Source: Liolophura sinensis
Taxonomy: Eukaryota > Mollusca > Polyplacophora > Chitonida > Chitonidae
Assembly: GCF_032854445.1 (NCBI RefSeq)
Contig: NC_088302.1
Coordinates: 39,748,191-39,812,190 of the forward strand
DNA: 64,000 nucleotides
Reading direction: 5' to 3'
Shown here: in pieces, positions 3,516 through 56,946 of the stretch
How the letters are laid out: every line of letters starts with the position of its first letter
How positions within the stretch are numbered: position 1 is the stretch's first letter
Program-made: the position numbers and the translations under genes
Notes under the pieces: model-generated
The model's database searches: none
The model's input: only the letters and a program-made list of their open reading frames with translations
Told to the model about the DNA's origin: nothing

Positions 3516-6189
3516 AATGCAACTTTCAGGATATACATATACATGAACCAGTCCAACTTTGGTCACAGAGTTACGAGATCCACTCAATCACGGCCACATC
3601 ATAGCATCTGCTAACACATCTTTATATTGTGCCTAATATATATATATATATATTTATATATATAACAAGGCTGTTCACCCTATATCACAGAAAAACAACA
3701 GCTACTGGTAAAATGCAGTGATTTACATGGAAATTAACATACAAAACACCTAACAGTCTAACAGGATGTTTCTATATGGGGCAAGAAATGATATTTTTGT
3801 TTGTAGACAAAGAAGTATGTTGTCAATGGTTCACAGTTTTACATTTGGAAGAAATCTATCCACTTTAATTTATAACACTTTATACTTTTCCCACCCAACT
3901 GTAAGCTTTATATACAAAAAAGAGTGTTCGAGAATGACCTACAGTAATATTCAACTCAAACAAGGCTGACAATTCTCATCCTGTATTTACCACATCATGA
4001 TTTTTGCATGTTTGTGCGTTCAAAGTAAAATTATCTACATGTACATCAAAGCTTGCGGCATTAATATACATGCTTACTGCTGATCCAAGTAAGAATGACT
4101 TCCAGACAATAAAATACCTGTATATCCATGGCTATATATACATGTAGACTAAAATCCAAACACTGCACAACTCATTTCTCGGATCACCGTATTGTACAAT
4201 TACTTATAAAGAATGTTATTTCCAGGTAACTTCATTGCACTACATGTAAATTTATAACCCCATTAAGCAGGTATACAGACCATTCAGTAAGAATCTGCCA
4301 ACACATGTGGAAAGATTACCAGAGTTCCTGTACACACAAGTACACACTGTATTAGTTCTAGGAGATCTCATTCTTCACAGCTATAATACAGAATAGTGAA
4401 CTATTGTTTCAATTAATTTATTCATATTTGGTATTTTTTTCTTAATGACAGCCAAAATATTTGTAATCTGCCCATCTGTTCTTTCGGCTAGACTCACTAG
4501 TTCATCAATCAAAGTGAATACCTGTAGGCCTCTCTTCCAAGGCAAAAGCGGGGCAGACATATCCTAATGTTTACAAAATTACATTGTTCAATTAGTTTTA
4601 ATTAATCTAGATCTTACACAATAACCTTGATTTGAAACCTTACAAACATACAATTTAGACAGTTGTGAAAGTTTTCCCAAGTGGGACATGGATATTTCAA
4701 TCAAAATACATATTCTTTACAATACATACACCACAGAATATGGTTGTCTTCTGGACTCGGATGATGTGCTGTGTAGGCTCACAATGTACTCATCAACTAC
4801 GAGAAAACCTAGGTAAAATCTGGGATGCTACCATAGTAGTCTGCAAAGGATCCACATCATCTTTACAGACTGAAGTGATCAGATTGAAGCAGTTGTGTAA
4901 ATCCAGTCAGAGCTGGCATATCACATTGATCCAACAGCCTTTAAAGTCTGTGAAGCAAAACAATTATGTCTCTCTAGGGCACAGAACTAATTAGAATGGT
5001 ACTAGTTACCATGGAAATCAGGTACAAAGAGAGTTAATGGCTTCACTTAGAAATGTTATTTTTCTGACGGCAGAACAGGATATTGTTTAATGGTATATGT
5101 TTATAGTGATATCACAGGAAATAGAACAGATTAAGATTGATCAAAGGAAATCAAAAGAAACACCTGTAAGGATACATATCAGGTTTCGTTTCTCAATAAA
5201 CAGCCCCACGTGAGCGCCATCGCCACTCCCTTACCATTTTACAGAAGATACCTTAAACAACTTGTAGTAGACATTTTCCACATACCTATTTCTAGGTATG
5301 CATTTCCATGCATACCTAGTGTGTCAACAAGGCTAAATACTGTTATTGGCAAACTATCAGGCCACCACTGGCAAACCTGTAGCAGACTTCAACAATTCCA
5401 CTACAGTTCTGTTAGTCTTCATCTACTGAGGATGTACACATTCATTTCGGTCCTACGTCTAAGGTTTATGGAATGGTAACCAGGCAACGGGAACATTATT
5501 TCAGTTTTCAACAATCAGTTCAGACAATTATGCAGCCTGTAAATACTGCTGGCAAGCTTACATGTGGGATGCTCCTACGGATACACATATTTTGTATGAA
5601 CATGTACCTAGGATACCAAATTAACAAACTTACAAATCGATAAAGATTTATCTACTTACATGTATAATTTAAAAACTATTAGGATTGTAAAGTTAGTGAA
5701 AGAGTATTGTCATAAACTGATCTTCTTAAATGGGGCATGGATTTTTTGTGGAGATACGATAGCTGGACAACAGTAGATTTCTACAGAAGTACATTTCACA
5801 GGTAAACTATTTGTAGACTTGCCATATTCTACCTGGATGCTCCAAAGGATTCATTTTAGCTTGGCTTGTGCTGCAGTGTCAATCGAATTTTGATCAGAAG
5901 ACAATTTAACTAGGAATTCATCGAAATGGTTTTATGGCCTCTACTTTAGAGTAAATCTTCAACACTAGGGGGGAATTGATCACTTAACAAAATTTCTCTC
6001 TTGAAGTGTAAAGAATTGCTCCCATGGTAATGTCAATGGCCTAAACTCTGCAAAACAGGTTCTTGGTGAAGAAATAACTGGTTTTTAATGTTCTTGATTT
6101 AGATGGTTTCTTGAAGAACTCTTGTGGAATCTTTACATCTAAAGGTGAAGTCCACTCCAAAAAGTACATCAACCAGGACTGCTTCTGCT

Positions 6190-8609: not shown

Positions 8610-8700
8610 TCAGTTGAACAGAATGTTTTCTGGATCTTGGTTCTCCAACTGGGCTATGTGCCTCAAAACATCCTTCTTTGTAATGATGCCTAGGAGTCTC
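8610..8700 (-). CDS. CLCN3: CLC exon 20: C-terminus and stop
   Basis: Final coding exon after acceptor CCTACAG, encoding [20 protein letters not shown] and ending [10 protein letters not shown] before TGA. The C-terminal NQDP..I.FN is a hallmark of the CLC-3/4/5 clade, so the protein is complete. Confidence 0.97.
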
Positions 8701-14700: not shown

Positions 14701-17700
14701 AAAAGAATGTAAAAATATTGTGGTCTCAGTTGATCATCATGCACCATTTTTGTTTAACAACATCCCTGAAGAGGAAAACATCTTTCTCATCGTTCCCCTA
14801 CCCTCTACCCATTTAGTAGACTGCACATTTTTTAGCTTTTTGCTCCACTTTACTAAAGGAAAAAAGCTGTGCCTTCCTCGGAGTGTAATATATGACAACT
14901 TGCTATATGTGTAATCTATATGCATCTTATTAAATCATCTTTATACCTATCTTAAACTATAAGACAGTTTCACCACAGATACAAAGGCTTGTGAGATCAG
15001 ATGTTATGATCTGTAAGAATTTAGATCTGTTATTTGAACAACAGAATGTTGGCATTGAAACCACAAAACATATGCATTTGTCGACAAGCTGGCTATTCAA
15101 AAAGCGGCATACCCTTCTAACAGAGTGAAATTTCCATTCATGCTTGGGGTTTTCTGCCATAAGTTTTCCGTCATATGACCATGAGTCAGTGTATAGGCAA
15201 AGTTACACATATCCTCCATACTTGTGAAAGCGTTTACATGCTTGGACTTAACATAACAAATTCTATTTCACTTCTTTCTATTTTCCCTTGTGTCATCTTG
15301 CATGAGGCCACTTGCTTCCACTCTGCCAGTATAAATAAATAGTGAGCAAATCTTTAAACTTCACAGAAATCTAAAATCAAGCTTTGCCCCTTTGATCCTG
15401 AAAGGAAGCCTTTCACTTATGAGCCTACCTTCCAGACACAGCTTAGTTCCAAACTGAGGAAAACAGATTACTCTTTGCTGTGACATCACCAATTCTTGTG
15501 TACTTTAAGCTCTCTAACAAGAAAGTGAACAGCTTGGGGAGAGTTTGGCAGAAGAATCCTTGTACACTAAGAGTGATGTGCAGCTCTTCATGAATGCTTG
15601 GGTTAGTGTTAGTTAACCCCGTTGCACCCCTCATGCAAAGCCACCATACTGATGTCCCTCCCATAGACTCATTACCCCTCCCCCCCCCTCCACCATTACC
15701 TGCAGGCATCACCAGACGTACAAGTAGATTATAAAACTTCTGTGTTAATACATAAAATGACAGTACAGGTGCCAGGCAGACGCCAGCGTGACATGACTGC
15801 TAATATCCCCCATTTTAATTAGACATTTTGGACATTTAACAACGTGTACCCTGACCTTGATTCCGAAGCAAATACCTTTTTATACTCAAGTAGTCTAAAG
15901 GAAAAGCGGAAAACCTGAAAAAATAAGTTCGTAATTTTTCTTTTTATAAGTTCACCTTTATGGTGGGAGAAACTACAAGATTATTAAACCTGAAGAGCAA
16001 TTAGTGTGGAAAACAGACATCCATGATTAAAAAATGCTGCTCAAAGCGTCAAGTGAGACATCAATGTATATACATGTACATGTATTAAGTATAAAGCTCA
16101 GACAAAACAAATATTAAACACATGACAGACTGGGCAGTACAACAACAACAACAGCACAGCACAACATATCAGAAGGCAGGGTGTCCTAACACTTAACTTA
16201 CACGCCTAATCCATATCGCCAGTATCTTAGGACAAAAAGTAAAACAGACACTCAATACATTCCTCTACTCAACCAAACTAGGCTTTTATTTGAATGACAA
16301 AAAACACCTGTCCCTGGCATAAAAATATTATTGGCTATTAGAGAAAAGGGCAGTGTATGGTACTTGTATTGAAATCATGGTGCACAATATTAATCACACC
16401 TAAACAGGACATACAAAATTTAAATGACCTGTACGCTGATAGCAGATTCCATTAAGTAGACTCATTTTTCCTATTATTCAGAGAATGGCTCTAAAGTTGA
16501 TTGGTACTATTGGAACATTTCAAGTAGTAGGAATTCACACAACACAAATTTTAAAACATTTCTTAAAACACCTCATAAAACATGTATTACTTTTTATTCC
16601 CAATTTCACCTTGTCCTGTGTGTTAATAGCAAATAGCATACACATGTATTAAAGCAATTCTTAATCAACAGTAGACACATTTTCCTTATTCCAAACATTA
16701 TGCAACAAACACATCAAACAGTACCAGTAACCTGATCAGGTTTCCATGTTGTCCTACATTCCCTGATCTAAATATCTGCAGACGGAAAACTTTGTACAAA
16801 ATGTTTTTCCTACAAACTTTTCTTGAAAATGATGTTGCCTTAAGGCACCATAACCTAGAAAACCTCTTTTACGAAACAAGTTACCAGAAATATGACTTAC
16901 AATGTTTTGTAAGTGGCACCAGTATACCATCAACAAGACCCTCCACCCACCCCCACCCCCTGCTGCTTGCCCCTTTATACTCCACAAAGGAAACTAGTAA
17001 GACGAGATACCAAAATGCTGAAATTCCATCAGCAGGCAATAAATTACTGAACGGTATACATGTAAGTTACGTGTACACTGTTAAAATGGTCAAAGTGGGA
17101 AGGATCAATATCTCACCTGGGTCTCATCACGTCCGCTGCTATCGTAGTGTGGGTAAACTCTTCTTTACTGTCCAGGTACGGGTAGCCATTGAGCTGGATA
17201 TGTGCATCATAGCTGCTCATGGTCAAGGGAGACAACTGCTCTATGGTTGAACATGGTAGCGTTTATTTCCAAGCCTGATCTAATATTAACAAGGTTGATA
17301 CCGATTGATTAGTTTGTTTGTTTTGGATTTCATAATAATTTTATACATTTATACATTTTTAGTTATATGGGCATGTTGTTGCAGCAGGCTGATCTGCTCA
17401 CTTTACCAGAAAAAGAATGAAATTCCTTAATGGCAAAAGCATGTTTCATGGCAAGATTGTCATGTTATCAGATAGAATTGGGTCCATATGTCAGGTCTAT
17501 TGTTTCGAAGAAAAATCATGTTGAGAAATCGAATTTCACATTACAAGAACTGTATCCCCCAGAAAGCAATTTCCCAGAAAGCAGAGCTACATGTAATGTA
17601 CCACTCTGTCTCAGAATATTGATTATATCAGGGTTGATTTTTTAATTGATTTTAGTATTCCACATTGCAGATATCGCTGATTGCAGTTGAGCCATCAAGT

Positions 17701-20700
17701 AAATCAATTACTATGTGGCAGCTAGGTGTGTGGAAAGAATGTGCACAACAAAAAATGGATAAAACAGCCTATAACCTCAAGTTGTAAAGTATCAGAGGTC
17801 AATTCTCGCAAAGACATTTTTAATGTACAATAAAATATGTACATGTACATATCTGATAAAGTAGCGTGAACATACGAAAATAAACCTCATAATGTGAACT
17901 TTTAAAACTTTAAATTAATAATTATGATGATGACTGACTTAAAATTAAAATTAAAAGTTAAAATTCAACCACTTAATTCTACTGTAACCGTTTGCAGCCT
18001 GAGTAAAGGATACATGCCCCTCCTGCCTAGGGCATCCCCCACCCATTTACTGGTCATCGTGGCAACCATCATGGGAACGATGTACTGGAGACCACCGGTC
18101 AGCTCAAACATAATCACCACCAGAGACACTGAAACAATCAGGAAGGGAAGGTTAACATTCAAAGAGAGTGAGGGTGGATCAACATCTACAGTATATGTGG
18201 AAAAAGGACTTTGACCACCAAACTACCTACCTTAATACTTCTAATTTTGGGGATATCTGGTTTGCTCCGTTTAGATAATATACATGCACCTTCCACAGGA
18301 ATACAGTTTCTCATTTCTCACATGGTTAGTCCAACTAATGAATACCACATACATATCTTTACTGTTTTCACCCCCCCCCAAAAAATAAAAAAACAAAACA
18401 AAACAAAAACATGTAATATTTTGCCATCAGCAGCACTAATATCTGTCTTAAAAATTAGATGAGTTACATACTAACATGTAGCTTCCTGCAGTGATAGGAA
18501 ATTTTAAGATACTGGTTATACATGTAAATGAAAATCTGTGTCATCCCAGAAACAATGTGATATTATGCAACTGTTATAAAATGTTATTCCCGAAACAATG
18601 TAACATTGTGTAACTGTTATAAATGAAACAATGTGATATTGTGAAACTGTTATAAAAGTTATCCCCAAAACAATGTAATACTGTGTAACTGTGATAAATT
18701 TTATCAACGAAAAAATGTGATATTGTGAAACTGTTATAAAAGTTATCCCCAAAACAATGTGATGTTATGCAACTGTTATAAAAATTTATCTCTGAAAAAA
18801 TGTAATACTGTGTAACTGTTATAAATTTTATCTAGGAAACAATGTGATATTGTGAAACTGTTATAAAAGTCATCCCAGAAACAATGTGATGTTATGCAAC
18901 TGTTATAAAAAGTTATCCCCGAAACAATGTAATATTGTGTAACTGTTATAAATTTTATCAACAAAACAATGTGATAATGTGAAACTGTTACAAAAGTTAT
19001 CCCCAAAACAATGTGATAATTTGTAACTGTTATAAAATTTATCAATGAAACAATGTGATATTATGTAACTGTTATGAAAGTTAAAAATGTGACACTGTGC
19101 AACTGTTATAAAAGTTGTTCCAGAAACAATGTGATATTGTGCAAATATTATAAAAATTATCCTTGAAGTACATCATATAGCTCAAATGTGATAAAAGTTA
19201 TCCTCCATATAACAGATCTTGATGTACATGTAGATCTGGGCATGTGCCTTCTCTCTATTCATATGAAGGTTACACAAAGAATGTATATTCTAGGTAGGAT
19301 TAAATTAGAACAGAAGTCTACTGCATTTCTGTACGTCATTCGCTATCATCATGCCCACCTGTCATCCTGGTCACACCCCCGAGTGCCGCAGCCGCCCCCA
19401 CCATGGCGTATATCCCTGGGGTGATGATAGCCTGACACTCCTCTCCTGGCTTGCAGATGTTACTCAGCAGCACATCAGGGTATTTCCTGTCACACATATC
19501 ATGTTATATATCATAATGCTTTGGCCATACAACATCTTAAGATGAAGGTTTATGGGGTTAAGATGGATTCAGGGGTTGGTGATGATGGTAGAAAAAAAAA
19601 AAATGTGATACACACACACACACACAAAAAGAAACTACTAGCCTTGAGGGCTTCGATTCCACATTTTATGCGAACTCCAAAGACCAATAACACTCAATGC
19701 CATATCTAATTCCAATTTTCAGACAAATTATCACGAATTCCTAAATTTTGAATGAAGCTTAATCTTTTTCTAAATAGTTTTTTTTTATCCTATGTCTATT
19801 TGATGCCTATCTGAACCATATGTTTGTCTGTATATATACATATGTTTTAAAATCTCTTTTTTGTCTTTGTTGAATGTAAAGTGTAGAGACAGCAGAACTT
19901 ACAAGACCAGCTGCTCCATTCCCACCCCAATAATTCTGCCCATGATGGCGCCCACAGCCATGCTGGGGATGAAGAGACCAGCTGGTACCTGAGGGACAGA
20001 CACAGACAACATCAACATAAACAAAATCAAAATTATAAACATTCTGGCATATATAGACTAATAAATCACATCCAACCTGTCTCGATTTTTTTGGTATTAC
20101 ACGGTGGCTTAAACCATTTTTAGAAACATTTGTACTTTACACACGTGTTGCTGACAGCAGACAGGTAAATATGGGTGGTGAAAAAAATATGCACGTCGTA
20201 AATTGGAGATCTCGATTCATCTGTGCAGTGTATAACAGAAAACTGAAATCTGTGGTAAATCTGAGAGATGGATTCATATGTGTAACGGAAAACTGACATC
20301 TGTGGTAAATTTGAGAGATGGATTAATATGTGTAACAGAAAACCCACACCTGCAGCAAACCTGAGAGATGGCTTCATATGTGTAATGGAAAACTCACATC
20401 TGTGGTAAATCTGAGAGATAGATTTATATGTCAGTTTTCCATTACACATATAAATCTAATGGAAAACTCACATCTGTGTTAAATCTGAGAGCTGGAATCA
20501 CATATGTGTGAGGAAAACTCACATCTGTGGTTAAACGGTGATCTGTATTCACATGTGTAACAGAAAAACCACATACGCAGCAAATCTGAGTGATGGATTC
20601 ATAAGTGTAATGGAAAACCACCACAGTCAAAAGTTTGAGAGCTGGATTCATAAGTGTAATGGAAAACCACCACAGTCAAAAGTTTGAGAGCTGGATTCAT

Positions 20701-23700
20701 AAGTGTAATGGAAAACCACCACAGTCAAAAGTTTGAGAGCTGGATTCATAAGTGTAATGGAAAACCACCACAGTCAAAAGTTTGAGAGCTGGATTCACAT
20801 GTGTTACCTCATTTATCACATGACCTGAGGTACATGCATATGTAATCACATGTTTATCCATACTTTTGAAAACAAGAATACGAGGTTTACCCCTCTCCCC
20901 CCCCACCAAAAAACAACAAAAATACTAAAGATAGTAAGGCTGGAACCAGGTTTTGTCTGTCATATTTTCCATTTCATTATTATATGTATAATATAATTAG
21001 TCTCGTATGTATGATATATGTGACTAATGCTAAACTAATGACTGGACCATATTCTCTAACCTCCTGCTGATTTCGTGTTGTTGAAACTGAACAGTATGGC
21101 ACATGTAGGAGGAGTTGTATTAAAAGACAGAGAAAATATAAAATAAAAAGTTATTAAGTACTTTCTTCACTAAATTGCCTAGATGCAATCAAATGTTTGC
21201 TTTATGAACCACTATTGGTGTCAATGGTGTCACAAACTTTTATTTCCACACCAGCACATCTTTAATGTTTTGGTAGCTCATTTATGTGCACAAGTACACT
21301 AACTAAAAGACGCGGGACATTTACTGAAATTGTTAGGTCTTTTATTATTGGCTAATTTCAATTTATTTACTTATTTGATTGGTGTTTTATGCCGTACTCA
21401 AGAATATTTCACTCATACGACGGCGGCCAGCATTATGGTGGGTGGAAACCGAGCAGAGCCCGGAGGAAACCTACGACCATCCACAGGTTGCTGACAGACC
21501 TTCCCACTTATGGCTAGAAAGGAAGCCTACATGAGCTGGTCTTGAACTCACAGCGACTGCATTGGTGAAAGGCTCCTGGATCCTTACGCTGTGCTAGCGC
21601 GCTAACCAATGGAGCCACTTTGGTTTTTTTGTCAAGTTATGTGGTTTTTTTTTGTCAAGTTAGAATTTCACTGAAAATGTATACAAATATTCTTTTAACA
21701 CCCCCCCCCCCCACCAAAAAAAAAAAAAAGATCTGATCGGCTTGAAATTTAATATGTTGTTACACACTGGGCAATGTTATTTAATCTTAAAAAGGTTTGA
21801 TTTCCGTATACAAATTACCTTTTTATCTCGGTAACTATTTGTGTAGAATGCACATACGGCAACGGTTTTTACCAAAAGTTTCAAGATTTTACCAGAAGTG
21901 GAAAAAAACAAAAACCAAACAAAAAACCAATGAAAATCACAGAAATCAGATCAATCTCATGTACTTGTTTACTTTTTATTTATTTCTTTTATAAATACAA
22001 CATGAATCGCACCTGTGAATAGAGGAAACCTGGCAGAGCTTTGGCTGAAGAAACCACCGCCTTTAGATTGCATACAGTTAGTTCTTTACCTACAAAATTT
22101 AAAACCATTGAATACGTACTAGATCTGTAAAAGAAACAAAAAATGTTCAGTACTTTCATGTAACTTGTAAAATACTTTACATGTCATACTTACAAACTGC
22201 ATGTTGCTACATGTAATTAAAAATGTTGACCTGATTGACATACCTTGATACCAAAGGTGAATATGGTGATGACAGCTTTAAAGACCAGTGCTAGGGCGAG
22301 TTGCCAAAGTGACCGCATAACACCGTCCAGGGCTCGTGCACTTTTTATATGCTCAATTCGGATACTTGTAAAATTTCTCTCATAGTCGCTGAAATATAAA
22401 TTGATCCCTAATTATTCGGTCCACAAAAAGAATAATTTATTCACTTGTTTATTTGATGTTTTATTTGATGCCATACTAAAAAAAACCCACGACCATCTGC
22501 AGGTTGTTGGTAGACATAAAAAAACAGATTTCCATCAGACTAAAACATCTGAAGCCTTGTACATGGGTCTAGAGTGCTTGTCTCATATTGTTGCAATTCA
22601 GCTCCTGACTTAATACAGGGGCCTCTGTGGCCGTGAGTCGGTGAGTCCGCTAGCGCAGCATAGCGACCCAGAAGCCTCTCACCAAGCCAGTCCCTGTGAG
22701 TTCAAGTCCAGCTCATGCTGGCTTTCTCTCAGGCCATACATGGGAAGGTCTGTCAGCAACCTGCGGATGGTTGTGATTTTCCCTCACGCTCTGCTCGGTT
22801 TCCACCCACCATAATGCTGGCCACCGTCGTATAAGTGAAATATTCTTGAGTACGGCGTAAAACACCAATCAAATAAATAAATAACTTAATATGGGATAAC
22901 TAGAATCAAGTTCTGCCGCCATGTTCACAAACAAATAAGTAAATGAGTTTTTCATTTCTTTTCTCTTAAATAGCATCCCCTTATGCCGCTAAAACCTAGC
23001 CAACGTCTTATATGAAAGAGTTATGAGAAATATTCATGATTACGGTGTAAAACATCAATCAAATAAATAAATCAAATGAAATAAATACAAAAACAACATA
23101 AAACTTGATGGCACTTGATGAGTCAATTGAAAGAATAAAGATATATATTTTACCAGAAAGCATTTTTTTCTTTCCAGCCAGCTATTAAAGCATCTAAACC
23201 TCAGATGGCAAACTAATTCTTGTACAGCCATTATTACTGCTACTGCTAATCCATACTCACCACAGCTCTATTTCATCTTCTGGTCCACATCGTTTAACCA
23301 GCATTCGGATTAGTTCACTGGTGTTCATTCTGTCACAAACAAACAGAGCTCAATGTCAATATAATACTGGTAATGTAAAATAAATCACGAAACACCACAA
23401 TGGCAATATTTCAGCTAGATTGCAGAGGTATGTGTACAAAATATTAAATAATAATACAATCCCAATAAAATATCACTAAGATATCAGTGAGAGCAGTCAT
23501 TTGGTTGGTGAGTAATTGCTCTGGAATTGAAACTCTTCAATGTTGAAAGATCACACAGGAAGTCCTGCCTACATGTACATGTATAACCCTTTTGGGGCTA
23601 ATTTACCTCAAATGTGATGAGAATTGCTGGTTTATTTAGTTTTGCCATTTACATACAGCTGTTACCACAATGAACTTTTTCGATGACCTTACTTTTCGCA

Positions 23701-41700: not shown

Positions 41701-44700
41701 TATTGCTTGAAATTGGCTATATAGAAAATATACAAAAATCAAGACAAAATAAATATTTTCAGAAAAATGTTATTTTTCTTTGTCATGCATGAATATTTAT
41801 ACTGTGAGTACATGTATGTATGATCATTAAGAGCGTTTTCTCTTGTGGTTTAATTTTTCATGTCACATGCACATTATTGCATTATATCTCTTGTGGTTCA
41901 ATATATACATGTAACAGGCACATTACTGCATGAGCATTTTCTCTTGTGGTTTGATATATACATGTAACACGCACATTAGTGCATGAGCATTTTCTCTTGC
42001 GGTTTGATATACGCACGTAACATGCACATTACTGCATGAGCGTTTTCTCTTGTGGTTTGATATATACATGTAACACGCACATTACTGCATGAGCATTTTC
42101 TCTTGCGGTTTGATATACACACGTAACATGCACATTACTGCATGAGCGTTTTCTCTCGTTTGATATATACATGTAACGTGCACATTACTGCATGAGCATT
42201 TTCTCTTGTGGTTTGATATATACATGTAACACGCACATTACTGCATGAGCATTTTCTCTTGCGGTTTGATATACACACGTAACATGCACATTACTGCACG
42301 AGCGTTTTCTCTCGTTTGATATATGCATGTAACCTGCACATTACTGCATGAGCGTTTTCTCTCGCTGTTTGATATATACATGTAACATGCACATCACTGC
42401 GTGAGCGTTTTCCCTTGTTGTTTGATATATACATGTAACGTGCACATTACAGCACGAGCATTTTCTCTCGTTGTTGGATATATACATGTAATGTGCACAT
42501 GAGCGAGGAGCAACATGGATAAAATATTTTATAACACTGCATGTACTCATTGAAGTTTCTCTTCCACTCACTGGATAAGACCATTTCACATCTGGTTCAG
42601 AAAGTTGTGACGTTACACCAGAGACATTTTCTATATGACAAATGCAATCTGCGTATAGCCTGCTAAACTGTGCTACATCACATGCATCTCTCGACACTAC
42701 TTCAGTTGAACCTCTGCCCCTCCCACCTTGTAGTGTTCCACTCATCATCTGGTTTAGTCAGACTGATATGTACATTCTTTCTGGTGTATAAAACAACAGT
42801 AAAATTAGCCTAGTTGTTTGTTCCAAGATAACAATGAATACAACAACTATTGCATGTTTGCAGACTGAAATTCTGAGATTCTCGGCTTGAGATGGCAGAT
42901 GTAAAACCAGCTCAGCGCTCAATGTAGATACAACATACAACAACTGTATAATGCTTCTGAGCCTCCATGTACATGACAAAAACCACAATAAGCATACATG
43001 TAATTATATGCAGTTTATGTTCTTCTAAATTTATGGGTTTAATAACATATGCTTATCTGAGCCTGGAGGATATTAAAACTAAGGCATGGCACCCTTAAGT
43101 TTTAATATCGTATAGGCATAATTTCCATTATAAAGCTCAGAGCAGAAATGACATTTGGCACTGGGGTCAAAATAAATCACGCTACATGTTTATAACCGTG
43201 TACCATGAGTGTACTTTCTATGTAACTCATGGGGCACTGATGACAGAATATAATCCATGTCCATGAGAAAACCACATGTGTGGTTTTCCTTGAGCATATG
43301 AAGCAGCAAGACTACATGTGGACATTATATAATGGGGCCTACCATAGGAGTACTTTCCTTCAGGTCACTGAAGAGCTCCCGGGCCTCATCCATAAAGTTG
43401 TTTTGCTTCTGTGTGGGTACATTCACGGAGCTGCCATTGGCTGCAAGGGCAGGGGGAGGTGGCGGAGGAGCGGGAGGGGGACTTGAGGGTGGGACCGCCT
43501 CCTCGTCTGCCTCTTCCTCTGACATTCGCCGATACATTGTCACCAAACCACTTAAACCTTAATGCTCAAGTACACATAAGGCTAACACTTGTCACAGATG
43601 AACGGCTTGACATGTGGACTGCTTCCTTACAATTCCAGGTCAGCGAGTGGGTACTATGACAGAGCCGGGCTGGGAGGATACAGGTCTTGAGCAGTCTCCA
43701 CACTATGATGGAACGAATGAATGCCTCACACTTTTACAAAAAGCAGGCACTGAATTTTCAACTTGAAGGCTATGCCGCAGCTTGTATTAAATCTCAGACA
43801 GTAAAACTGTACATAAAAGATATATGTATTGTTCAATCCGTGAATATAAACAATATGCTGGCAGCACTTGGCAGGTTGAGGTAAAAGAATGAGGGTACAG
43901 GAACCCACAGTGAAAACAATACCATGTAGTCATCTGCCAGTCATGTGGGTTTAACACAGTGGACAGCCAGAGGACACCACTAAAATGTGGCTAAGAGAAT
44001 CAGTATCCTGGAGTTCAATGACACAGGTCCTCTGTGATTAGAGGGCTAGATCAAACTTCAGTCTAAATCCTGTGACCCTCGGGTCAGGCAGAGATCCCTG
44101 GGCTATCACAGCTGATCCGTGACACCTGAGCTCAGTGACAACTGCAGAACATACCTGTCCTATGGACTTCCCAAACTGCATGTCCACATTATTGTAACTG
44201 CTTGTAAATCCTAGAAAGTCTGCTTACAAAATACTCAGTTGCATCAAATTTCACTGCAAAAACTTCAGCTGTTTCACCGTCAGAAGTTTTATACACAGAG
44301 ACAACTTTCTAAATTTAGCATTGATATAGTGCAGTACAGACTTTAGATTTCGCCTGGGATTTGGATTTATCTACTGGCATGCTCTCATCAGTGAATCGAG
44401 CAGCAGATTGTATGGAATGTATATGTAACCACAGGTCATAATCCAACACAGCTGAAGTTCAGGGTCTGTATGGCAGTCTGAGAAGTCATGGACTAATCAT
44501 GGACTACAGGCTGGTGCGATATTTAACATTCTCTAAAGGTAACAGTATCCCTGAGGTCTCGTCTATGGTACAGTATCCCTGCTGTCTCGTTCTCAGGTAC
44601 AGTATCCCTGATGTCTTGTGCTCAGGTACAGTATCCCCGATGTCTCGTCTAAGGTACAATATTGCTGATGTCTTGTGCTCAGGTACAGTATCCCTGATGT

Positions 44701-56700: not shown

Positions 56701-56946
56701 ATGTGTGTAGAATGACTATGGCTTACCATGACTCTTGTCTGCCACCTCATTGTCCAGATCTGCCCGAGGATTTGTCTCTGATATATCCAACATCTCGTCG
56801 TCGGTGCTGGAATGGATGCTAGCGTGGTCAGACACAATTCCGTTTGCTCCTCCGGTCCGGAACGAGGTCATCTGTGGAGGATGGCCAAATGTCTCCTCAC
56901 AGTCGGCTAAAAGAGCATCAGTTTCCATTAATGGAAAGTCTGACAT
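8610..56946 (-). CDS. CLCN3: CLC-3/4/5-type 2Cl-/H+ exchanger, whole gene (spliced CDS span)
   Basis: This is the gene-level entry; exons are listed separately. Joining the exon at 56,727-56,946 to the 19 downstream exons gives 2,484 nt, an uninterrupted 827-residue protein ending in TGA at 8,610-8,612, close to the usual 800-820 residues. All splice phases agree and every intron but one is ordinary GT-AG. The protein has the CLC selectivity motifs GSGIPE (about residues 247-252), GKEGP (gating glutamate about 291) and GLFIPS. A second 'proton' glutamate at about 348 in SLEEVSYYF is typical of exchangers rather than channels. A C-terminal pair of CBS domains follows. The closest family is vertebrate CLC-3, -4 and -5, which exchange two chloride ions for a proton in endosomes and support their acidification. 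Non-vertebrates usually have one gene for this clade, so the symbol means the clade rather than strict orthology to CLCN3. Confidence 0.96.
8975..9062 (+). repeat. Dispersed repeat shared with 39,470-39,548
   Basis: Both places carry AAGGTGGATG..CAA, CAGAATCAAG and later TAAACTT..GTTGAAATACAG-like blocks in the same order. I do not recognise the family; it may be a fragment of a longer element. Confidence 0.5.
9251..9345 (-). CDS. CLCN3: CLC exon 19: CBS2
   Basis: 95 nt, phase 0 in and phase 2 out, from ATTTTTCAG to AATGG/GTATGT. It encodes [20 protein letters not shown] and [12 protein letters not shown], the first half of CBS domain 2, nearly identical to vertebrate CLC-3. Confidence 0.96.
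9448..9560 (-). mobile_element. SINE family 1, 3' fragment
   Basis: Reverse fragment with GTGTTTTACGCCGTACTC and AAGAATATTTCATTTATAC up to ACCATCTGCCGGTTG. It lies in the intron between CLC exons 18 and 19 and creates a spurious plus-strand open frame. Confidence 0.82.
9818..9936 (-). CDS. CLCN3: CLC exon 18: linker between CBS domains
   Basis: 119 nt, phase 1 in and phase 0 out, from CATTACAG to ATG/GTAAGC. It encodes [17 protein letters not shown], a divergent linker, and [11 protein letters not shown]. The PLKLRRIL block matches vertebrate CLC-4; the linker is the least conserved part of the C-terminus. Confidence 0.94.
10810..10917 (-). CDS. CLCN3: CLC exon 17: CBS1
   Basis: 108 nt, phase 1 at both ends, from TTGAACAG to ATCA/GTGAGT. 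It encodes [20 protein letters not shown] and [16 protein letters not shown], the NGFPV and RRDL parts of CBS domain 1, which in mammalian CLC-5 takes part in nucleotide binding. Confidence 0.95.
11507..11520 (+). promoter_or_regulatory. CTCF-like motif in a CLC intron
   Basis: CCACCAGGTGGCGT is a very good match to the CTCF core motif. It lies in the intron between exons 16 and 17. CTCF is conserved in bilaterians including molluscs; binding here is untested. Confidence 0.4.
12010..12235. mobile_element. MITE-like element, partial copy
   Basis: The right end is GCGAAAAGGTTGAGGAATTA, and the inner ATCAAATTAAAAATGTGCAT matches the 29.2 kb copy. The left terminal repeat is not recognisable. 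It lies 12 bp or less from the acceptor side of CLC exon 16. Confidence 0.6.
12248..12306 (-). CDS. CLCN3: CLC exon 16: CBS1
   Basis: A 59-nt exon between TTGTACAG and ATAG/GTGAGT, phase 2 in and phase 1 out. It encodes [19 protein letters not shown], matching the beginning of CBS domain 1 (RNDPPLAVLTQDNMTVDDI in vertebrate CLC-3). Confidence 0.95.
13975..14170. mobile_element. MITE-like element, partial copy
   Basis: The right end GAAAAGGTTGAAGAATTAGG is clear. The left part shares TGGAATTTATGCATACAAT with the fragment at 34.8 kb. Confidence 0.55.
14442..14683. mobile_element. MITE-like element with 17-bp terminal inverted repeats (complete copy)
   Basis: It starts ACTGTAATTCTTCAACC and ends GGTTGAAGAATTACAGT, perfect inverted repeats, around a roughly 240-bp AT-rich non-coding body. 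Related sequences lie at about 12,010-12,235, 13,975-14,170, 29,189-29,395, 34,793-34,880 and 47,098-47,258. It has the form of a non-autonomous DNA transposon; no transposase is seen and the superfamily is unknown. Confidence 0.75.
17117..17212 (-). CDS. CLCN3: CLC exon 15: entry to the CBS region
   Basis: 96 nt, phase 2 at both ends, donor CCCAG/GTGAGA. It encodes [19 protein letters not shown], then [13 protein letters not shown], aligning with [20 protein letters not shown] of vertebrate CLC-3. This is the linker into the cytosolic CBS domains. The acceptor has no polypyrimidine tract; instead CCTTGAC lies about 10 nt before the AG, as in U12-type introns. Confidence 0.95.
17213..18013 (-). 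other. CLCN3: U12-type (minor spliceosome) intron of the CLC gene
   Basis: The intron begins GTATCCTTT (18,013 downwards on the minus strand), the exact U12 donor consensus. It ends with CCTTGAC followed by CATGAGCAG, a good U12 branch-point sequence with the branch A about 10 nt from the AG. There is no polypyrimidine tract. The homology junction GRRG-I-YDAHIQ matches GREG-I-YEAHIR of vertebrate CLC-3, so these boundaries are fixed independently. All other introns of the gene look U2-type. Confidence 0.9.
18014..18128 (-). CDS. CLCN3: CLC exon 14, with U12-type donor
   Basis: 115 nt, phase 1 in and phase 2 out, following TTGTTTCAG. It encodes [19 protein letters not shown], the last membrane helices ([13 protein letters not shown]) and two bases of the next isoleucine. 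No ordinary donor fits the homology. The boundary falls at AT/GTATCCTTT, a perfect match to the U12-type 5' splice site (RTATCCTTT). Confidence 0.95.
18545..19165. repeat. Minisatellite, 33-43 bp unit
   Basis: About 15 imperfect copies of a unit like GAAACAATGTGATATTGTG plus AAACTGTTATAAAAGTTATC. It fills half of the intron between CLC exons 13 and 14. Open frames through it are by-products of the period. Confidence 0.93.
19359..19486 (-). CDS. CLCN3: CLC exon 13: pore tyrosine region
   Basis: 128 nt, phase 2 in and phase 1 out, from GTGTGACAG to ACAG/GTGGGC. It encodes an extracytosolic loop ([14 protein letters not shown]) and then [18 protein letters not shown]. The tyrosine in IYAMVG is the inner-gate, chloride-contacting tyrosine of CLC proteins and is present. 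Confidence 0.96.
19903..19988 (-). CDS. CLCN3: CLC exon 12: motif GLFIPS
   Basis: 86 nt, phase 0 in and phase 2 out, from GTCCCTCAG to CTT/GTAAGT. It encodes [20 protein letters not shown] followed by GVGMEQL. GLFIPS is the third chloride-site loop of the CLC pore; vertebrate CLC-3 has VPSGLFIPSM here. Confidence 0.96.
20203..20802. repeat. Minisatellite, 49-50 bp unit
   Basis: About twelve units containing GAGAGATGGATTCATATGTG and GGAAAAC. The last four (from 20,603, period 49) are practically identical while the earlier ones are diverged. It lies in the intron between exons 11 and 12. Confidence 0.93.
21361..21622 (-). mobile_element. SINE family 1, nearly full length
   Basis: Reverse-oriented copy with the tail (TTATTTATTTGATTGG side) first and the tRNA-like head at about 21,545-21,620, including the GAACTCACAGCGAC side of the B-box region. 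It lies in the intron between CLC exons 11 and 12. Confidence 0.88.
22244..22388 (-). CDS. CLCN3: CLC exon 11
   Basis: 145 nt, phase 2 in and phase 0 out, from ATATTTCAG to AAG/GTATGT. It encodes CDYERNF, a variable loop, then [18 protein letters not shown] and TFGIK. The variable loop lacks the DIPDRPAG sequence of vertebrate CLC-3/4, but the membrane part is well conserved. Confidence 0.95.
22450..22515 (-). mobile_element. SINE family 1, short deleted fragment
   Basis: Reverse remnant in which the tail (TTTGATGCCATACT) is joined directly to ACCCACGACCATCTGCAGG, with the middle lost. It lies just upstream of CLC exon 11. Confidence 0.65.
22619..22886 (+). mobile_element. SINE family 1, nearly full length
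   Basis: Forward copy from GGCCTCTGTGG to an (AAATA)n tail. The A box is degraded (inserted CGTGAGT), the B box GAGTTCAAGTCC is intact. The flanks share ACTTAATA with small differences, a probable target-site duplication. It lies in the intron between CLC exons 10 and 11. Confidence 0.88.
23010..23082 (+). mobile_element. SINE family 1, tail fragment
   Basis: Diverged forward tail: GAAATATTCATGATTACGG, TGTAAAACATCAATCAAAT, AAATAAAT. Confidence 0.65.
23261..23329 (-). CDS. CLCN3: CLC exon 10
   Basis: A 69-nt exon between acceptor TTTGTGACAG and donor CTGTG/GTGAGT, phase 2 at both ends. It encodes [16 protein letters not shown] followed by an acidic stretch. It aligns with LNTSELIKELFTDCG of vertebrate CLC-3. 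The split cysteine at its end (TG|C) starts the CDY motif completed in the next exon. Confidence 0.93.
24112..24167 (-). CDS. CLCN3: CLC exon 9
   Basis: A 56-nt exon from TTCACACAG to AAG/GTATGT, phase 0 in and phase 2 out. It encodes a hydrophobic run [18 protein letters not shown], matching the AITAVIAFPNPYTR helix of vertebrate CLC-3. It was placed by homology and phase. Confidence 0.92.
24485..24795 (+). mobile_element. SINE-like element, family 2
   Basis: Recognised by shared blocks with the copy at 55.1 kb: a start with ACAATTTTTCAGTTATATG and a CCGACGA-type stretch, a TTCTTGTTGCAGGGTGGA block, an AGTGCTGC block, and then ATTATACTGATACGAGCCAA. The last block and the GCGAGGAAGC stretch resemble an interspersed repeat I associate with bivalves and other molluscs. 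The body ends near ACCCGACCCAGGATTGACCC. Confidence 0.6.
25133..25222 (-). CDS. CLCN3: CLC exon 8
   Basis: 30 codons, phase 0, from TATTCCAG to GAG/GTAAGT. It encodes [20 protein letters not shown] followed by LGKYPISE. This corresponds to the [20 protein letters not shown] to GKYPVLE segment of vertebrate CLC-3. The sequence is more diverged than its neighbours but the length is identical. Confidence 0.93.
25585..26515. repeat. Minisatellite, 31-36 bp unit, A/C-rich
   Basis: Roughly 28 imperfect units of the type CACCATGACAAGCACACCC plus AGACTTCTCAC in the intron between CLC exons 7 and 8. The strand asymmetry is extreme (A+C on plus), so the transcribed RNA is G/U-rich. It produces several long spurious open frames on both strands. 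Confidence 0.95.
26678..26860 (-). CDS. CLCN3: CLC exon 7
   Basis: 61 codons, phase 0, from ATACAG to GGG/GTAAGT. It encodes [25 protein letters not shown] and a membrane helix ending VILGALG. It matches vertebrate CLC-3 nearly residue for residue. It is followed by an intron that contains the largest minisatellite of the window. Confidence 0.96.
27036..27116 (-). CDS. CLCN3: CLC exon 6: proton glutamate
   Basis: 27 codons, phase 0, from acceptor TTATCAG to donor GAG/GTAAAA. It encodes [20 protein letters not shown] and ends VLFSLEE. The final glutamate lies 57 residues after the gating glutamate, the same spacing as E211 to E268 in CLC-5. That residue carries protons in exchangers and is replaced in channels, so the protein should be a 2Cl-/H+ antiporter. 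Confidence 0.96.
27481..27687 (-). CDS. CLCN3: CLC exon 5: gating glutamate
   Basis: 69 codons, phase 0 at both ends, bounded by TTATTCAG and GAG/GTGAGT. It encodes [17 protein letters not shown], then [17 protein letters not shown] and [11 protein letters not shown]. The glutamate of GKEGP (about residue 291 of the 1a isoform) is the external gate of CLC proteins and is intact. Small differences from vertebrates are GPF for GPL and ASCC for ACCC. Confidence 0.97.
27724..28010. repeat. Minisatellite, about 38 bp unit
   Basis: About seven units of the type TTCAGAATTAACAGTAGAGC plus TACATTTTGCTGAAGAA in the intron between CLC exons 4 and 5. Confidence 0.9.
28166..28327 (-). CDS. CLCN3: CLC exon 4: selectivity motif GSGIPE
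   Basis: Phase 0 to phase 0, 54 codons, bounded by TTTGACAG and GAG/GTAACG. It encodes WYTWAELFG, a hydrophobic helix, then [21 protein letters not shown] is the first of the chloride-coordinating loops of CLC proteins. The exon is too short in uninterrupted frame to be obvious as an open reading frame; it was placed by homology and by the phases of its neighbours. Confidence 0.95.
28848..28912. repeat. Short tandem repeat, 21 bp unit
   Basis: Three nearly perfect units AGTAAACTGGAGTGCCC(A/G)G plus a partial fourth. Confidence 0.93.
29189..29395. mobile_element. MITE-like element, second long copy
   Basis: It begins ACTGTAATTCTTCAACC followed by TTTTCGCATG and ends with a diverged inverted end (TATGCGAAATTGTCGAGG). 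The inner part shares ATCAAATTAAAAATGTG, TATAAATTG and CCAATCCAACCAATGAAG with the 12.1 kb copy. Confidence 0.7.
29702..29856 (-). CDS. CLCN3: CLC exon 3
   Basis: It follows acceptor TTTCTCAG and ends AGA/GTGAGT in phase 0. It encodes the end of the first helix ([20 protein letters not shown]) and the extracytosolic segment with EQCCW, both closely matching vertebrate CLC-3 and CLC-4. The potential N-glycosylation sequon NNT falls where the vertebrate proteins have NETT. The loop is slightly diverged but colinear. Confidence 0.95.
30565..30778 (-). mobile_element. SINE family 1, truncated at the head, without an AAAT tail
   Basis: Reverse copy flanked by identical 13-bp duplications (CAAGCCATGTCTT at 30,552-30,564 and 30,779-30,791). 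The first part of the tRNA head, with the A box, is missing, and at the other end the element stops at CTGATTGG without the (AAAT)n tail seen elsewhere. The body is otherwise close to the 39.1 kb copy. Confidence 0.9.
33125..33539. repeat. Minisatellite, 56 or 62 bp unit
   Basis: About seven units of CACATGCCCACATTGTGATG, ACTTCACCGACTGCCTGGCA and GTGGTACATGTGAGTA. Units differ by a 6-bp insertion that extends ACATGT to ACATGTACATGT. It lies in the large intron between CLC exons 2 and 3. Confidence 0.93.
34793..34880. mobile_element. MITE-like element, left-end fragment
   Basis: TAAATCTTCAACCTTTTCCA followed by GTGGAATTTATGCATACAAT, shared with the 14.0 kb copy. Confidence 0.5.
37160..37378 (-). 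CDS. CLCN3: CLC exon 2: start of the conserved core
   Basis: First exon shared by all isoforms. It begins after TTTTAG in phase 1 and ends GCAGCAG/GTATGG in phase 1. It encodes [16 protein letters not shown], the [11 protein letters not shown] block diagnostic of the CLC-3/4/5 clade, a basic stretch, and then DAWSGWL, which opens the first membrane helix. The stretch immediately upstream of the acceptor is a 93-bp tandem repeat. Confidence 0.95.
37396..37762. repeat. Minisatellite, 93 bp unit, next to CLC exon 2
   Basis: Four units of exactly 93 bp, almost identical, plus a shortened fifth (about 76 bp). Each has CATTTGTCAATTTTGTAGAG and TAAGGTACAGATAGGGACAC. The array ends 17 bp from the exon 2 acceptor, so the branch point of that intron probably lies in the first unit. 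Confidence 0.93.
37769..37971 (-). mobile_element. SINE family 1, diverged copy
   Basis: Reverse copy with TATTTATTTGACTGG, CACTCAAGAATATTTC and GCATGAGCTGGACTTGAAC recognisable. Part of the body is deleted. It directly abuts the 93-bp tandem array. Confidence 0.8.
38309..38445 (-). mobile_element. SINE family 1, 3' half
   Basis: Reverse copy covering the tail and body (GATTTGGTGTTTTATGC, ACTCAAGAATATTTCACTT, ATCCGCAGGTTGCTGACAGA). The tRNA-like head is missing. Confidence 0.85.
38679..38845 (-). mobile_element. SINE family 1, old 3' fragment
   Basis: Diverged reverse copy: TTTATTTATTTGATCAGCG, ACTCAAGAGAATTT, ATCTGCAGGTTGGTGGCAG. It lacks the head. Confidence 0.75.
39134..39410 (+). mobile_element. 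Full-length tRNA-derived SINE (family 1)
   Basis: This is the reference copy for the window. The head has a perfect Pol III A box (TGGCTCAGTGGG, 39,146-39,157) and a B box (GAGTTCAAGTCC, 39,214-39,225). A conserved body and an (AAAT)n tail follow. It is flanked by identical 12-bp target-site duplications (TAGAAATTAATC at 39,122-39,133 and 39,411-39,422), so the insertion is fairly recent. Confidence 0.93.
40080..40222 (-). mobile_element. SINE family 1, 3' fragment
   Basis: Reverse copy with GTGTTTTACGACATACTC, CGGCCAGCATTGCAGTGGG and CAGGCAGAGCCTGGGG. It follows a short forward tail fragment (about 40,014-40,068). Confidence 0.75.
41822..42498. repeat. Minisatellite, about 53 bp unit
   Basis: About 13 units of CTGCATGAGCATTTTCTCTT, GTGGTTTGATATATACATGT and AACACGCACATTA, in an intron upstream of CLC exon 2. 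It underlies a spurious 135-residue minus-strand frame. Confidence 0.95.
43354..43537 (-). CDS. CLCN3: CLC exon 1c: candidate proline-rich alternative first exon
   Basis: A GC-rich island inside the intron encodes a peptide beginning [13 protein letters not shown], followed by a run of prolines and then [15 protein letters not shown]. An in-frame TAA lies 27 nt upstream of the ATG. Two donors are possible. ATG/GTAGGC (exon end 43,343) looks stronger but leaves phase 0, which cannot join exon 2. A/GTACTC (exon end 43,354) is weaker but leaves phase 1 and would join as KES-STNLMD, giving an 815-residue protein. An unseen small exon could also rescue the first donor. The codon-like composition, quite unlike the surrounding AT-rich intron, suggests real coding sequence. 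Confidence 0.45.
44527..45092. repeat. Minisatellite, about 29 bp unit
   Basis: About 19 units of CTCAGGTACAGTATCCCTGA plus TGTCTTGTC, in the intron between candidate first exons 1b and 1c. Confidence 0.94.
47098..47258. mobile_element. MITE-like element with internal duplication
   Basis: It begins CTGCAATTCTTCAACTTTTT and carries AAATCAAATTAAAAGTGTGC. The segment CATAAATTG..GTGAAGGTTGCTC is duplicated in tandem before the right end. Confidence 0.55.
48782..48885 (+). mobile_element. Fragment of another interspersed repeat
   Basis: The stretch TATGGCTGCAACATTGCC, AAAGTGGCGTTAAGCCATA, ATCATTCATTCATTC looks like the 3' end of a common lophotrochozoan repeat with a CATT-type tail. Only the tail part is present. 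Confidence 0.5.
48911..48966 (+). repeat. T-run followed by G-rich stretch
   Basis: About 15 T, then GGTG and a run of 15 G, then TGTGGGGTGGTAGGGTGGTGG. It could form a G-quadruplex on the plus strand. Confidence 0.7.
49327..49426. repeat. Tandem repeat, 25 bp unit, four copies
   Basis: TAGACATCAAGGCACTAGTC AAATG repeated four times with a few changes, less than 1 kb from candidate exon 1b. Confidence 0.93.
50160..50301 (-). CDS. CLCN3: CLC exon 1b: alternative first exon
   Basis: An ATG at 50,301 opens a 47-residue frame starting [12 protein letters not shown]. It ends at a donor (AATG/GTAAAT, exon end 50,160) in phase 1, exactly the phase needed to join exon 2. An in-frame TAA lies 12 nt upstream of the ATG and I see no convincing acceptor there, so it is best read as an alternative first exon with its own promoter. 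The resulting protein would be 801 aa. The peptide is basic ([10 protein letters not shown]) and lacks the dileucine signal of exon 1a. The prediction comes from phase and composition; I recognise no homologue of this N-terminus. Confidence 0.6.
54754..55048. repeat. Minisatellite, about 27-36 bp unit
   Basis: About nine loose units of AGAACCTTGTATATTCTGTT plus AGATAC. Confidence 0.85.
55128..55345 (+). mobile_element. SINE-like element, family 2, truncated
   Basis: Second copy: ACAATTTTTCAGTCATATGA, TTCTTGTGGTAGGGCGAG, AAAGTGCTGCCCCCACTAAA, then ACCAGACCAACCAGTCTTG and TTTCCTTGCTCTAGG. It stops earlier than the 24.5 kb copy. Confidence 0.6.

Follow-up and report, generated by a model that had tools for sequence, protein, structure and literature searches.

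An intron at the junction between the membrane domain and the CBS region of a chiton CLC gene is very probably (about 0.93) a U12-dependent minor intron, residing in the apparently sole CLC-3/4/5-type Cl-/H+ exchanger gene of the genome; most likely it is an old intron that was lost toward human CLCN5. All positions below are those of the window, which is the whole 64-kb stretch of DNA that was analysed. The intron and its candidate splicing signals are as follows.

17213–18013, minus strand: U12-type GT-AG intron, 801 nt, phase 2, splitting the Ile codon of GRRG-I-YDAH
18005–18013, minus strand: U12-type donor GTATCCTTT, identical to the consensus TATCCTTT at all 8 positions that follow the first base
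17222–17230, minus strand: U12-type branch site TCCCTTGAC, 8 of 9 positions, branch A at 17223 (position -11)
17213–17218, minus strand: tandem acceptor GAGCAG, the second AG favoured by homology

On the minus strand, the upstream exon ends in GGC AT followed by GTATCCTTT (18014/18013), and the downstream exon restarts with C TAT GAT after CCTTGACCATGAGCAG (17213/17212). The predicted splice product is GGCAT joined to CTATGATG. Once the intron is removed, the reading frame is open, and GRRG-I-YDAH is aligned without gaps to GREG-I-YEAH of CLC-3. These boundaries are the ones that a preceding sequence-only reading had set by homology. Usage of the first AG of the GAG/CAG acceptor would add one serine at the membrane–CBS junction, with the branch A only at -8.

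The minor-intron consensus was tested as RTATCCTT(T) for the donor and TTCCTTRAC for the branch site. The branch-like CCTTGAC noticed earlier near the acceptor corresponds to TCCCTTGAC, which contains a single mismatch, with GAC rather than AAC at the end. The available text of two papers gives ATATCCTT, TCCTTAAC and an optimum of 11–13 nt for the branch spacing (PMC2831892, PMC6717393). The branch A at -11 is within this optimum (PMC6717393). Minor introns are described as biased away from phase 0 (PMC10639083), and phase 2 of this intron agrees with that bias. The donor and the branch site would be recognised by U11/U12, splicing would be carried out by U4atac/U6atac and U5, and the membrane and CBS parts would thereby be joined.

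The gene model around the intron contains the following features.

8610–37378, minus strand: CLC-3/4/5-like gene, exons E2–E20; 19 exons, 753 codons and 18 introns, one of them U12-type; stop codon at 8610–8612
18014–18128, minus strand: exon E14, which closes the membrane domain (...GRRG), from the gene model
17117–17212, minus strand: exon E15, a linker that leads to the CBS region (...MRPR), from the gene model and homology
56727–56946, minus strand: probable first coding exon E1 (...SHG), joined in frame to E2, donor GTAAGC

The product of E2–E20 is colinear with residues 68–818 of human CLC-3 (1162 bits, 495 identities in 748 aligned pairs). After CLC-3, the 753-residue product is most similar to a CBS fragment of CLC-5, with 250 bits across 175 residues; the remaining CLC proteins, led by CLC-2, score 231 bits at most. 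Judged from protein similarity, the gene belongs to the CLC-3/4/5 exchanger type, to which it is closest over the full length. The genome was searched with 127 residues around the junction, and five matches were obtained: four at the exchanger locus and a weak one on C9. As only one strong locus was met, the CLC-3/4/5-type gene looks single-copy. Rfam gives no matches over the 64-kb window at the gathering score. Tandem repeats of about 42 bp (18592–19162) and about 50 bp (20229–20804) lie inside introns of the exchanger gene. An open stretch (...STPM) followed by GT is found at 43343–43537 on the minus strand. Its direct joining to E2 would bring a stop in frame, so that it may be non-coding or a different sort of alternative first exon.

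One rule was applied to score all 18 introns of the E2–E20 model, with 6–30 nt as the span of the branch-site search; the E1/E2 intron is outside this set. The U12 donor and branch site are seen together in only one of them, E14/E15. The other 17 introns match the donor at 1–4 of 8 and the branch site at 4–6 of 9 positions, and are U2-type by this scoring. Among the 7973 GT sites on both strands of the window, the full 8/8 donor is found once, at the candidate itself, leaving zero without it. Branch sites with at least 8 of 9 matches at 8–15 nt are found at 12 of the 7243 AG sites on both strands, the candidate among them. With the candidate counted, the chance of donor and branch site together is about 2e-7 per GT-AG pair, and about 4e-6 over the 18 introns. 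The earlier assignment of the intron to the U12 type is thus upheld (donor 8/8, branch site 8/9), and this class is as firm as sequence allows. Further exact TATCCTT donor-like sites are located at 5175 (minus), 47666 (minus), 47619 (plus) and 59575 (minus), with no exon attached.

For the comparison with human CLCN5, positions were mapped through CLC-3 by count. The numbering offset between CLC-3 and CLC-5 was fixed by W547, taken from a paper, and by E211. Some of the CLCN5 junctions were calculated from the lengths of exons and the distances that the sources give. In the available text of the sources, junctions can be placed after c.105, 205, 723, 804, 1347, 1534, 1933 and 2150 (PMC10669864, PMC7014080). 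Six of these eight agree with introns of the exchanger gene in both codon and phase (69/1, 241/0, 268/0, 449/0, 645/1 and 717/2), while those after c.105 and c.1534 are without an equivalent in the exchanger gene.

The position of the U12-type intron corresponds, by count, to Ile557 of CLCN5 in phase 2 (c.1670/1671), inside exon 10. As far as the sources describe it, this exon is c.1535–1933, 399 bp, and is uninterrupted at the mapped position. Two exon-10 variants, c.1657delG and c.1920delC, flank the position on both sides (PMC7014080). Because exon 10 spans the position, human CLCN5 has no intron there, and the earlier question of whether vertebrate CLCN3/4/5 have a U12 intron at the same place is answered in the negative for this gene. 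The same exon also spans three further exchanger introns, at codons 519, 589 and 609, and exon 8 spans four, at codons 329, 359, 378 and 400. In total, eight exchanger introns are absent from human CLCN5, as two runs of four. For CLCN4, an exon end at c.1576 is given in a table (PMC13300261), and of the 13 exons, the eleventh is said to contain A555 and the twelfth R694 (PMC10542403). This placement indirectly fits the CLCN5 layout. The literature search yielded no gene structure for CLCN3, and usable coordinates were not found in the available text of a paper on buffalo CLCN genes.

The other CLC genes of the genome were labelled by their best relatives of solved structure. The C1 gene is CLC-7-like: its top match, at 139 bits, is a chain that carries only the name "Chloride channel protein", followed by CLC-7 (133) and CLC-6 (119). 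The C5 gene is CLC-6/7-like (CLC-6 69 bits, CLC-7 57), and the C9 gene at 22.68 Mb is CLC-6-like (CLC-6 88 bits vs. CLC-7 72). The second C9 gene, at 13.80 Mb, is given no subfamily label; a CLC-2-like identity was rejected, as the tested exon has its nearest relatives in CLC-6 and CLC-3 and none of its matches is CLC-2. Relative to the protein, introns of the C1 and C5 genes sit almost where the exchanger intron does. Both are U2-type and phase 0, and lie 5 nt upstream, which rules them out as the same intron as 17213–18013. In the C9 gene at 22.68 Mb a U2-type intron occurs earlier, and the C9 gene at 13.80 Mb has none in the corresponding exon. A tandem array with a 94-bp unit (about 22 copies, L014 4879–6895) repeats, in the CLC-7-like gene, most of the exon that follows the membrane–CBS intron, including the donor of that exon; this array is an exon-derived minisatellite.

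A scan of 10–26 kb per locus revealed one exact U12 donor in the other CLC loci, where further, degenerate ones may exist. It belongs to the C1 gene.

C1:8669638–8670476, minus strand: 839-nt U12-type intron of the CLC-7-like gene, in phase 1; the donor is GTATCCTTT, and the branch site TAACTTAAC matches at 7 of 9 positions

The branch site contains CTTAAC, and its A is followed by 11 nt. Across this intron, KYAFVKD-Y-VDTC is read in an open frame and is aligned without gaps to KYRVVKDNIDKF of the best chain. Clcn7 is listed as a U12 intron-containing gene in print (PMC5435706), and in this respect the chiton CLC-7-like gene resembles it. Among the CLC genes, only Clcn7 is named as U12-spliced in the available text of PMC1976558, PMC5435706, PMC6717393, PMC6865273, PMC8283771 and PMC11765398. 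The literature search found neither the position of the mammalian Clcn7 U12 intron nor any published exon junction of human CLCN7 at the codon that corresponds to the CLC-7-like one. The two chiton introns differ in location: the CLC-7-like one is in the early membrane domain, whereas that of the exchanger is at the membrane–CBS junction.

It had been stated earlier, as known background, that U12 introns are often seen in ion-transport genes. This agrees with their presence in the alpha subunits of voltage-gated Na+ and Ca2+ channels (PMC6865273) and in the CLC-7-like gene here. The exchanger intron resembles the animal U12 GT-AG introns of these channels (SCN, CACNA1) in its donor, branch site and spacing, in being one minor intron among major ones, and in belonging to an ion-transport gene. 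The channel proteins are unrelated to the CLC exchanger, and therefore the intron positions cannot be common.

Loss of an old minor intron from CLCN5 is the most likely history, based on published trends and on the two runs of absent introns. Losses of minor introns far outnumber gains, with one clear-cut gain only (PMC2831892). A relative enrichment of minor introns is reported for molluscs and the brachiopod Lingula (PMC10639083). The two runs of four introns absent from CLCN5 look like loss of neighbours, and the U12-type intron would have been lost together with them on the way to human CLCN5. Its gain in the chiton lineage, which would place it among the very rare gains of minor introns, is unlikely. 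The lack of the intron in human CLCN5 would fit such a gain, as would the lack of any intron at the exact position in the four other CLC loci, two of which carry a U2 intron located 5 nt upstream, the other two having none in the stretch. Both the excess of losses in the published survey (PMC2831892) and the pattern of neighbour loss in CLCN5 argue against it.

U12-type introns form a rare but established class, and this case is a small evolutionary curiosity without a new mechanism; ideas on the workings of minor splicing are unchanged by it. What is added is a well-supported minor intron in a CLC exchanger gene where human CLCN5 has none. Since it is present here and absent there, the CLC family could be used as a case of loss or gain on a largely common exon frame.

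It had been inferred earlier that the intron could be rate-limiting for the exchanger. Its slow removal might set the output of the exchanger, by switching between the full-length protein and a product of intron retention that ends ahead of the CBS domains. This is an improbable proposal, somewhat less probable than the gain of the intron. If the intron is retained, translation reads 16 residues past the last common Gly and then meets a stop, so that the CBS domains would be absent or the RNA would be decayed. Minor splicing is described as slow or regulated, and as able to limit or switch expression in general (PMC1976558, PMC3728624), which is consistent with such a switch. Against it, the retained stop lies far upstream of the later introns and would predict RNA decay, and a pan-eukaryote survey suggests that the evolution of minor introns may in large part be accounted for by neutral processes (PMC10639083). 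The further idea that the intron at the membrane–CBS junction is a tunable switch of this lineage, with retention giving either a CBS-less exchanger or a dead message under a control absent in human CLCN5, is more speculative still.

The absence of a polypyrimidine tract, also claimed from the sequence, stands for the stretch between the branch site and the junction, CCATGAGCAG. At -20 to -4, pyrimidines occupy 11 of 17 positions, compared with 7–14 in the other introns, and this count is not distinctive, because the pyrimidine-rich branch site falls inside. The match to the U1-type donor consensus (exon end included) is 5 of 9, the lowest of the 18 introns, with 6–8 of 9 in the others. Removal by the major spliceosome, with the U12-like signals having arisen by chance or been left over from the conversion of the intron, is highly improbable: the GT-AG ends, the ordinary pyrimidine content at -20 to -4 and the U2-type scores of the 17 other introns would suit it, but the poorest U1-type match in the gene, the missing tract downstream of the branch site and the joint chance of about 4e-6 for the gene speak against it. 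Duplex energies of pieces of the U11, U6atac and U12 snRNAs with the sites were equalled by 147, 319 and 236 of 500 shuffles, respectively. Pairing energy was therefore discarded as support, the real sites being no better than the shuffles.

Components of the minor spliceosome are seen in the same genome. The Pfam zinc-finger model zf-U11-48K has four matches within 3 kb of C3; this model also matched one of 14 control genomes, that of the archaeon Sulfolobus. Rfam matches above the cut-off are at least two for U6atac, at least four for U12 (four of the five matches listed), at least two for U11 and at least one for U4atac. By eye, the U12 loci retain GTAAGGAA and the U11 loci retain AAAAGGG, the parts that pair with the branch site and the donor, respectively. 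The U6atac loci likewise retain, by eye, the AAGGAGAGA box, which is reported to pair with the 5' end of the intron (PMC8283771).
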